Assembly: GCA_026646875.1 (NCBI GenBank)
Contig: JAPKHL010000002.1
Span: 1 to 64,000 of the forward strand
Direction: 5' to 3'
Origin: Rhodocyclaceae bacterium
Lineage (GTDB): Bacteria > Pseudomonadota > Gammaproteobacteria > Burkholderiales > Rhodocyclaceae
DNA length: 64,000 nt
In this document: positions 4,070 through 19,734 of the stretch, piece after piece
How positions within the stretch are numbered: position 1 is the first letter of the stretch
Layout of the letters: every line of letters starts with the position of its first letter
Translations under genes and position numbers: made by a program
Notes under the pieces: model-generated
Told to the model about the DNA's origin: nothing
The model's input: the letters and a program-made list of their open reading frames with translations, nothing else
The model's database searches: none

Positions 4070-4486
4070 TCAGCGCGGCGGCTCGGTGACGAAGGCGATC
4101 TTGACGATGCCGACGCGCTGCGCCTCGGCCAGCACTTCCGTAACACGCTCGTAGCGGGTTCCCCGGTCGGCGCGCAGGTGCAGTTCGGGCTGCCGGCCAT
4201 CGGCGACGGCGGCGGCAAAGCGGGCCGCGAGCGCGGCCTGCGCGATCTCGACGCCATCCACGAACACCCGGCCGTCGCCATCGATGGCGACGGCCAGGGT
4301 GTGCGGTTTCTCATCGATGCGCGTGGCGTCGACCTTGGGCAGGTCGACCGGCACGGCCTGGTTGAACAGCGGCGCGGTGATGATGAAAATCACCAGCAGC
4401 ACGAGCATCACGTCGACCAGCGGCGTGGTGTTGATCTCGGCCATCGGCTGCGCATTGCCGCCCTCGTTGAACGAACCGAACGCCAT
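4070..4486 (-). CDS. exbD: ExbD/TolR family biopolymer transport protein
   Basis: AEINTTPLVDVMLVLLVIFIITAPLF motif; directly downstream of exbB. Confidence 0.92.
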   Translation of the reverse strand: MAFGSFNEGGNAQPMAEINTTPLVDVMLVLLVIFIITAPLFNQAVPVDLPKVDATRIDEKPHTLAVAIDGDGRVFVDGVEIAQAALAARFAAAVADGRQPELHLRADRGTRYERVTEVLAEAQRVGIVKIAFVTEPPR

Positions 4487-17119: not shown

Positions 17120-17147
17120 TTGACTCGCCGGCAACCTCCGGTATGAT
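17120..17147 (+). promoter_or_regulatory. Sigma-70-like promoter driving the riboswitch leader
   Basis: TTGACT (17120-17125) - 16 bp - TATGAT (17142-17147), just upstream of the riboswitch. Confidence 0.65.
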
Positions 17148-17155
17148 CCGCACAT

Positions 17156-17235
17156 TGAAAAAAGCACCCCCGACCGAAAGGCGGGTTCGCAAAGTTTCCG
17201 GTCTAAGGGCTGACGCCTAGGACAGCGGGATTGCC
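17156..17235 (+). ncRNA. Cyclic-di-GMP-I (GEMM-I) riboswitch-like element
   Basis: AAGCACCCCCGACCGAAAGGCGGGTTCGCAAAGTTTCCGGTCTAAGGGCTGACGCCTAGGACAGCGGGATTGCC: GNRA-capped hairpin, GCAAAG joining segment, CCGGTCTAAG receptor-like segment, 3' GACAGCGGG-TTGCC. Upstream of a GGDEF/EAL gene. Confidence 0.85.
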
Positions 17236-17394
17236 AATGCGCCGGCGCGCCGTCTCCGGCCGCGTCCCTGCCTGCTGCCCCCGGAACGAAAACCAGAAGA
17301 TCCAGGGGGAACCTCTTGAGCATCCACTGCGCGCCACCGTTTCCGGCGGAACGGCGCTGTCGCCGGCGTTTCGCCGACTGACGCCACGTCCGGC

Positions 17395-19734
17395 ATGCAC
17401 GCCTCCACGCCCGCCCCCGCGCGCGACCCGCTCTTCCGCTGGCTTTTCCTCGAGGACAGCGCTCTGGCGCCGACCGAGTACCCTGCCTGGAAGATCAGCG
17501 CATTGCGCATCATCCTCGTCTCCGGCTTCGCGCTCGAGGCGCTGATCGCCCTCCACAGCTCGCTGGCTGCCGTCGCGATCGGCGCCTACCACATCGTCGG
17601 CATCGTCGCCCTCTTCTACTGCCTGCTGGCCACCGGGATCTACTGCTCGCTGCGCAAACCGCGCCTGGGCGCGGGCATCCTGATCGGCACCATCTACGCC
17701 GCCGGCGTGGCGATCATGCTGTTCGTGAACGTTCAGGAGATCGCCAAGCTTGGTGTCATCTTCGTCTACACCACGCCGATCGTCGCCCGCATTTTCTTCG
17801 GCGTGCGCCCGGCCCTGGTGTGCATGGCTGTCAACACGCTGCCCTTCCTGCTGCTGCTGCGCAACGAGCCGCTGCCGACCGTGCCGGAATTCGACATAAC
17901 GCTGACGACATCGCACACCTACATCCAGTCGCTGCTCTTCCTGTTCTTCAACGTCTGCGTCCCGCTCGCGGTGCTGCGCGTGCTGCACGCACTCGACGCC
18001 ACGGCGGGGCACTACCGGCGGACCTCCGATGCGCTGGGGCGCAGCCGGGCGCAGTACGAGGAGATCTTCGAGAATTCGGGCAGCGCGATCCTGCTGTGCA
18101 CGGCCGACGGCCACATCCTGCAGGCCAACGGTCCCGCCAACCGGATGATCGGCCGGCAGCCCGCCACGCCGAGCGGGGCGGACACGCTCGGTCGCTGGCT
18201 GCGCCCCCTGAGCAGCGAGGCGCCGCACCCGGAGAGGCTGGAGGAGGCCTGCGCCAACGCGCAGATCTTCCACACGCACGACGACAAGCGGATCGCCTTC
18301 AAGCACGTCGCACGGACCACGACGGACCACTACATTGTCGCGCTGCGCGACGTCTCCGACCTGCACCGGATGCAGAGCGCGCTGGAGAGCAGCCGGGCCC
18401 ACGCCTCCTTCCTGCGCACCCACGACCAGCTCACCGGCCTGCCGAACCGCCAATCGCTGCGGCAACACCTGGCCGAACGTCTGCCGCTGGTGGCGCCCGA
18501 GCGGCTGCTCGCGCTCGCCGCCATACGCCTGAAGAGCGTGCGCTACGCCAACGAAACCTGCGGCGTCGGCATCGGCGACGACTTCATCCGGCGCTTCGCC
18601 GAGCGACTGGCCGACGCCCTGCCGCCCGAGTGTTTCTGTGCCCGCCTGCGCAGCGTCGTCTTCGCGCTGGTGATCGATCGGGCGCAGCACCCGGCTGCGG
18701 TGGTACAAGCGCTCGAACAGGCGCAGCGGGCCCTGCCGACGGAAATCGAGATCGACGGCCAGCCGCTGCTCGTCCAGCTCTCGATCGGCGTCGCCCTGGC
18801 CCGCCCCGACGAACCCTCGGCCGACGACCTGATCCGCCGCTGCGAGATCGCCCTGGACACCGCCCGCCGCTCGAACGACCCGGCGACGCTCGTCCTCTTC
18901 GACGAGCGCGATGCCGCCGAGGTCCGCCGCAGCCTGCAGCTCGAGATCGGCATGCGCGAGGCCCTGCGGCAGCACGAGCTTCACCTCGTCTACCAGCCCC
19001 AGGTCACCCTCGACGGCAGCCTGGCCGGCATGGAAGCGCTGCTGCGCTGGCGCTCCGCCACCCTGGGCGAGGTCTCGCCAGCCGAATTCATCCCCGTCGC
19101 CGAGCGCGCCGGCCTCATCAACGATCTCACCGCGTTCGTGATCGACGCCGTCTGTGCCCAGGTCCGGCAGTGGCTGGACACGGTCGGCCGCTGTCCGCCG
19201 GTCGCCATCAACCTCTCGGCGCACGACATCGTGCGCGACAACCTCGTCGCACTGGTGCTGGCGGCCTGCGCCCGTCATGCGGTGGACGCCGGGCAGCTCG
19301 AATTCGAGATCACCGAGACCGGCCTGATCGAAAACGAGACCCTCGCGATCCGCCACCTCGAGGAGCTCAAGGCACGCGGCTTCGGCATCGCCATCGACGA
19401 TTTCGGCACCGGCTACTCCTCGCTCGCCAAGCTCAGCCGCTTTCCGGTGCGCTGCATCAAGATCGACCGTTCCTTCGTCAACCGCATCGGACACTGCGAG
19501 AAAAGCGAGACGATCATCCGCGGCATCGTCTCGCTGGCCGGCATCCTCGGCTGCACCACGGTGGCCGAAGGCGTGGAGACCGCCGAGGAGGAGGCCTTCC
19601 TGAAGAGTGCCGGCTGCCCGCTGTTCCAGGGCTACCGCTACCACCGCCCGCTGCCGCCGGCGGAGGCAGGCGCCCTGCTGGCCCGTGCGGCCGCCCTGCG
19701 CGGACCGGCGAACGTGGCGCCGGTGAGCGGATAA
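17395..19734 (+). CDS. Membrane PAS-GGDEF(degenerate)-EAL protein, probable c-di-GMP phosphodiesterase
   Basis: N-terminal TM helices; PAS (YEEIFENSGSAILLCTADGHILQANGPANRMIG); GGDEF-domain start DQLTGLPNRQSL but active site reads RLRSVVFALVI; EAL motifs MEALLRW, DDFGTGYSSLAKL, KIDRSFV present. Confidence 0.93.
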   Translation: MHASTPAPARDPLFRWLFLEDSALAPTEYPAWKISALRIILVSGFALEALIALHSSLAAVAIGAYHIVGIVALFYCLLATGIYCSLRKPRLGAGILIGTIYAAGVAIMLFVNVQEIAKLGVIFVYTTPIVARIFFGVRPALVCMAVNTLPFLLLLRNEPLPTVPEFDITLTTSHTYIQSLLFLFFNVCVPLAVLRVLHALDATAGHYRRTSDALGRSRAQYEEIFENSGSAILLCTADGHILQANGPANRMIGRQPATPSGADTLGRWLRPLSSEAPHPERLEEACANAQIFHTHDDKRIAFKHVARTTTDHYIVALRDVSDLHRMQSALESSRAHASFLRTHDQLTGLPNRQSLRQHLAERLPLVAPERLLALAAIRLKSVRYANETCGVGIGDDFIRRFAERLADALPPECFCARLRSVVFALVIDRAQHPAAVVQALEQAQRALPTEIEIDGQPLLVQLSIGVALARPDEPSADDLIRRCEIALDTARRSNDPATLVLFDERDAAEVRRSLQLEIGMREALRQHELHLVYQPQVTLDGSLAGMEALLRWRSATLGEVSPAEFIPVAERAGLINDLTAFVIDAVCAQVRQWLDTVGRCPPVAINLSAHDIVRDNLVALVLAACARHAVDAGQLEFEITETGLIENETLAIRHLEELKARGFGIAIDDFGTGYSSLAKLSRFPVRCIKIDRSFVNRIGHCEKSETIIRGIVSLAGILGCTTVAEGVETAEEEAFLKSAGCPLFQGYRYHRPLPPAEAGALLARAAALRGPANVAPVSG

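Follow-up and report, generated by a model that had tools for sequence, protein, structure and literature searches.

An adenine-20 variant of the c-di-GMP-I riboswitch precedes a predicted c-di-GMP phosphodiesterase gene in Rhodocyclaceae

The window analysed here, a stretch of 64,000 nucleotides from the genome of a Rhodocyclaceae bacterium, contains an ORF at 17395..19734 (+ strand) that codes for a protein of 779 residues with a membrane (MASE11-like)-PAS-degenerate GGDEF-EAL architecture. In Pfam searches the EAL and GGDEF domains scored 226 and 80 bits, respectively, while the PAS match was weak and that to MASE11 lay below the cut-off. The EAL motifs are intact (EALLRW, NLS, EITE, DDFGTGYSS, KID, EGVE and QGY) and align with those of solved EAL domains, including 8arv, such that the complete set of residues that marks EAL phosphodiesterases (the catalytic EAL, NLS, EITE, DDFG, K, EGVE and Q) is present. 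The GG(D/E)EF motif of diguanylate cyclases is lost, with RSVVF standing in its place. Given the intact EAL motifs and the loss of the GGDEF motif, we predict that the protein is a c-di-GMP phosphodiesterase, the probable function given by a sequence-only reading of this DNA, rather than a cyclase.

Upstream of this gene, a cmscan search against Rfam detected a match to the c-di-GMP-I riboswitch (RF01051) at 17153-17238 (+), which covers the full length of the model (1-87) with a score of 61.3 bits (E=1.5e-9; the gathering score is 35 bits); a tRNA was the sole further Rfam match in the 64-kb window. A covariance-model alignment of 99 relatives, which was deliberately enriched for cases with adenine at position 20 (A20) and comprised 93 distinct sequences, showed 97.4% of the cells in the distinct sequences to be paired, as against 25–47% in slid controls, with changes on both sides in 16 of the 19 pairs. 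The covariation in these 93 relatives supports the three-helix architecture of RF01051 for the window aptamer. Using the cmscan alignment and the ligand contacts seen in 3IRW, the equivalent of A47, which stacks between the two ligand bases, was placed at 17191 (+), and the equivalent of C92, which forms a Watson-Crick pair with one ligand guanine, was placed at 17234 (+) with the additional aid of the relatives' alignment. Both residues are conserved, and the same cmscan alignment shows the G21-C46 and C22-G45 pairs to be retained and the GAAA tetraloop of P2 to lie at 17176..17179 (+). The internal loop of P2 departs from the usual form, having ACC rather than AAA on its 5' side (17166..17168, +) and UUC rather than GAC on its 3' side (17186-17188). 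The score and the kept pocket residues A47 and C92 bear out the c-di-GMP-I/GEMM-I class that the sequence-only reading had proposed, and the hairpin, GCAAAG, CCGGTCTAAG and GACAGCGGG-TTGCC elements that it had listed are all present.

That reading had also suspected, through an alignment it regarded as uncertain, that the equivalent of Vc2 G20, the ligand-selectivity residue, may be an A. Position 11 of the Rfam model is the unpaired base preceding the 2-bp G12-C13 helix, and it corresponds to Vc2 residue 20, since the list of ligand contacts in 3IRW (G19, G21, C46, A47, A48, A49 and G50; PMC7288161) fixes the numbering. By this alignment, run with the covariance model and read at residue 20, the window aptamer has an A at 17163 (+); the suspected substitution is thus real, and it is conserved in all four orthologous aptamers described below. 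The window aptamer hence lacks the G20 that is typical of c-di-GMP-selective GEMM-Ia RNAs, and it shares with the three other orthologous loci the A20 of the GEMM-Ib class.

A20 is rare in the family. In an unbiased set from 61 related genomes, position 20 is an A in 5 of 62 riboswitches, the window aptamer counted, and a search with an A20-specific pattern returned about 9 cases in 339 RF01051 hits, which is an undercount because the pattern requires the GAAA loop and CGCAAAG. Isolated cases also occur in single genomes, at loci unrelated to this one (L019, L029, L218, L227, L370 and L371). The one in L227 (1189-1273, +; genome G080) lies before a c-type cytochrome gene, which is a target type of the Geobacter cGAMP riboswitches. 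In genome G051, some 1.2 kb separates two RF01051 riboswitches (L056:2919-3001 and 4147-4229, both on the - strand) that have C21-G46 as in the Geobacter cGAMP RNA; one of these has A20 and the other G20, and they may represent GEMM-Ib within the same order. Riboswitches with G20 are repeatedly paired with one type of large protein (L001, L003, L015, L020, L024, L027, L035, L051 and L375), whose N-terminus reads MGTTASNKVISLNGLGR... and appears DUF1631-like by eye. A protein resembling those that follow the G20 riboswitches in L001, L027 and L375 is preceded in genome G215 by an A20 riboswitch (L371:1174-1272, -), and given that its relatives have G20, A20 can evidently drift or arise sporadically. 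In genome G004, a divergent intergenic region holds two near-identical c-di-GMP-I riboswitches in back-to-back orientation, with about 350 bp between them (L033:2001-2088, -, and 2441-2528, +).

When 399 genomes of the family were searched at the protein level, orthologs of the predicted phosphodiesterase turned up in seven, and in four of the seven an RF01051 riboswitch lies directly upstream. These four riboswitch-gene pairs come from four species in three genera: the window genome; G417 and G386, these two from one genus; and G411, which belongs to another genus and shares its assembly with L145 ('Rhodocyclales bacterium GT-UBC'). In the stretches scanned, no Rfam riboswitch was detected upstream of the orthologs in Undibacterium, Azospira (including Azospira oryzae, among the other three of the seven genomes), G096 and Pseudoalteromonas; the ortholog in G233 was covered only by the family-wide search. 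The N-terminal parts of the four riboswitch-associated proteins are 57–66% identical, and whole-length identity between the window protein and the others does not exceed 56%. The protein tree is compatible with one or two origins of the riboswitch-gene pair.

All four orthologous aptamers have A20 (AGCA...), as against none of the seven other RF01051 riboswitches of the same genomes, all of which have G20. Were the riboswitches independent, such a split would have 1 chance in 330; their independence is incomplete, however. The leaders of the four genes do not align outside the aptamer, which indicates that the aptamer itself is what was kept. The internal loop of P2 reads ACC/UUC in the window and ACG/CAC, AAC/CUC and AAC/UAC in the other three, as opposed to the common AAA/GAC form, which is mostly retained by A20 RNAs elsewhere. 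Judged from these sequence comparisons, A20 is non-random at the locus of this gene. The individual pieces are ordinary, in that the riboswitch class is known and so are natural members with A20; what is new is that A20 is locus-specific beside G20 sisters, that the target is a phosphodiesterase and that no recognized cGAMP synthase was found, with the proviso that the founding papers on cGAMP riboswitches may list betaproteobacterial members with A20/G21.

The promoter of its own that had been proposed for the riboswitch is a sigma-70-like TTGACT-N16-TATGAT at 17120..17147 (+) with 10 of 12 consensus matches. No other promoter-like match occurs within 800 bases (shuffled sequences gave a mean of 0.0, sd 0.2), and TTGACA-N17-TAxGAT occurs at the equivalent place in the orthologous loci of G417 and G386. 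As the promoter ends at 17147, the transcript is expected to begin roughly where the aptamer does, and we place the first base of the latter at 17153 in correction of the sequence-only reading. The leader between the aptamer and the start codon spans 156 nt (17239..17394, +), close to the 160 nt or so that had been estimated ahead of a PAS-GGDEF-EAL gene. No intrinsic terminator was found on the + strand of this leader, and transcription attenuation was dropped as a mechanism for that reason. Control of translation initiation is hence our default guess. Single-sequence MFE folding of the leader was no better than that of shuffled sequences (z +1.2) and is uninformative. No shared expression platform was found among the orthologous leaders, which align only within the aptamer. 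In G417 and G411 a Shine-Dalgarno GGCAAGGG is complementary to the TTGCC of the 3' strand of the aptamer, which contains C92, and through such a pairing, binding of the ligand would leave the ribosome site free in those two genomes. It was not adopted as the expression platform, as it is absent from the window leader, and given that this leader has no Shine-Dalgarno of the GGCAAGGG type we claim neither an ON nor an OFF switch for the window RNA. The leader also holds a 21-codon ORF with a TTG start (17316-17381, +), which has a purine run, GGGGG, upstream and ends 13 nt before the ATG of the gene in another frame; it is possibly a leader ORF or, equally, a product of chance.

Studies on GEMM-I RNAs have shown that the cGAMP riboswitches of the GEMM-Ib class are those with A20, and that an A20G change shifts the Gmet_0970 RNA from cGAMP to c-di-GMP (PMC6456294). 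Position 20 influences selectivity without acting as a hard filter; a protonated adenine allows cGAMP riboswitches to bind c-di-GMP, and mutations in the lower part of P2 shift selectivity (PMC9262584). The window RNA resembles Vc2 of Vibrio cholerae (GEMM-Ia, RF01051) in its fold, GAAA tetraloop, G21-C46 and C22-G45 pairs, A47 and C92, and in sitting in the 5' leader of a c-di-GMP-related gene, but differs from it in having A20 in place of G20 and an ACC/UUC rather than an AAA/GAC internal loop in P2. With the Geobacter GEMM-Ib RNAs (Gm0970 and Gs1761/4YAZ) it shares A20 in a pocket with C92. However, its 21-46 pair is G-C and not C-G, a feature that may not define the subclass, and its target is an EAL enzyme, whereas those of the Geobacter RNAs are cytochrome, pili and polysaccharide genes. 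The closest likeness is to the engineered Vc2 G20A (4YB1; used as a biosensor aptamer), which combines A20 with G21-C46 in the Vc2 pocket and is reported to bind cGAMP too (PMC7288161), although the window RNA is natural and has a changed P2 internal loop. Judged by its predicted pocket, the window RNA is a naturally occurring equivalent of Vc2 G20A and not of the Geobacter RNA.

In Hypr cyclases a Ser (or Thr) replaces the Asp of diguanylate cyclases, nine residues after a conserved Asn (Asn339 and Ser348 in GacA). We read this position in 212 GGDEF domains: 54 from the window genome, 64 from G411/G121 (GT-UBC) and 94 from G417 and G386, leaving out about 10 further hits that were mostly truncated or degenerate. 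A canonical GGDEF domain aligned with GacA (6d9m) over 77 residues to 77, which indicates that the column was read correctly. The position is occupied by Asp in 208 of the 212 domains and by Asn in one, is degenerate in three and is never Ser or Thr; no Hypr GGDEF is therefore present among the domains read in these four genomes, and this source of cGAMP was dropped. A gene for a SMODS (DncV-type CD-NTase) protein was likewise not found in these genomes, whose assemblies are incomplete. The one domain with Asn (L072; genome G000, contig C75) has an intact GGDEF motif, with the Asn in place of Asp at the base-recognition position (GHAIGN). That no recognized cGAMP synthase was found, a further difference from the Geobacter systems, favors c-di-GMP over cGAMP as the ligand in the cell but falls short of proof, because completeness of the window genome stands at 86.6% and another synthase is possible.

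Taken together, the riboswitch class, its own promoter, the probable phosphodiesterase and A20 stand from the sequence-only reading, while c-di-GMP as the ligand and the feedback can only be inferred. As A20 marks the GEMM-Ib RNAs that select cGAMP, the ligand may be other than c-di-GMP, and the conserved A20 may leave the choice among c-di-GMP, cGAMP or both. We lean towards a detuned or dual-specificity c-di-GMP switch, which we consider somewhat probable. A GEMM-I-fold riboswitch at the extreme 5' end of its own transcript would control the membrane EAL phosphodiesterase, and a second messenger would thus feed back on messenger breakdown, in a direction that we leave conditional. A20 would most likely change the response rather than abolish it: c-di-GMP would still bind through C92 and A47, with a changed and probably reduced affinity that may depend on protonation of A20, as has been described for cGAMP riboswitches, and the same aptamer may also accept 3',3'-cGAMP. 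Binding would then modulate expression of the phosphodiesterase, presumably at translation and not through termination.

A genuine 3',3'-cGAMP (GEMM-Ib-like) riboswitch, served by an unrecognized synthase and linking both signals by placing a c-di-GMP phosphodiesterase under cGAMP control, would account for the conservation of A20 at this locus only, with G20 in the sister riboswitches, and for the joint presence of A20 and C92, a cGAMP-type pocket as judged from the A20G ligand swap in Geobacter (PMC6456294) and from Vc2 G20A. It is nonetheless unlikely, though still a serious candidate, as searches of the host genomes found neither Hypr GGDEF nor SMODS, the window RNA has a G-C pair where the Geobacter RNA of known structure has C-G (C15-G40; PMC6274999), and the target is an EAL enzyme whereas the known cGAMP hydrolase described in PMC11352751 is an HD-GYP protein. 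It is also improbable, to a greater degree, that this is an ordinary c-di-GMP-I riboswitch in which a near-neutral A20 inherited from a common ancestor is tolerated, with sensing unchanged in practice. Pocket mutants of Vc2 bind more weakly, but the wild-type KD of 0.011 nM (11 pM; PMC9049102) is low enough to tolerate some loss; A20 also turns up at the unrelated single-genome loci listed above, and the tree is compatible with a single origin of the A20 pair. Against neutrality, all four orthologs keep A20 despite the whole-length protein identity of at most 56% and wholly diverged leaders, and none of the seven sisters has it. A decayed aptamer or a functionless chance match might be entertained from the folding of the leader, which does not exceed shuffled sequences, and from the several lineages that bear the gene without a riboswitch, but the full-length 61-bit match and the retention of pocket residues and promoter where the flanks have diverged make it very improbable.

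Returning to the preferred switch, a lower affinity for c-di-GMP on a phosphodiesterase gene would suit a high-threshold feedback, whereas a cGAMP switch would amount to cross-talk. If A20 is under selection here, a single cell operates the same riboswitch fold in two forms, distinguished by their selectivity residue, and one of the two governs a phosphodiesterase. Such a pair would serve as a small natural experiment on the division of labor among GEMM-I RNAs, whether by ligand (c-di-GMP or cGAMP) or by c-di-GMP level (low or high). Less probably, the A20 lineage of Rhodocyclaceae senses 3',3'-cGAMP, or cGAMP together with c-di-GMP, and controls a c-di-GMP phosphodiesterase in bacteria with no known cGAMP synthase. 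Were this so, there would be an unrecognized synthase or a two-signal sensor beside ordinary G20 c-di-GMP switches in one cell, and a cGAMP-selective RNA would point to cGAMP signaling outside the Hypr and DncV-type systems.
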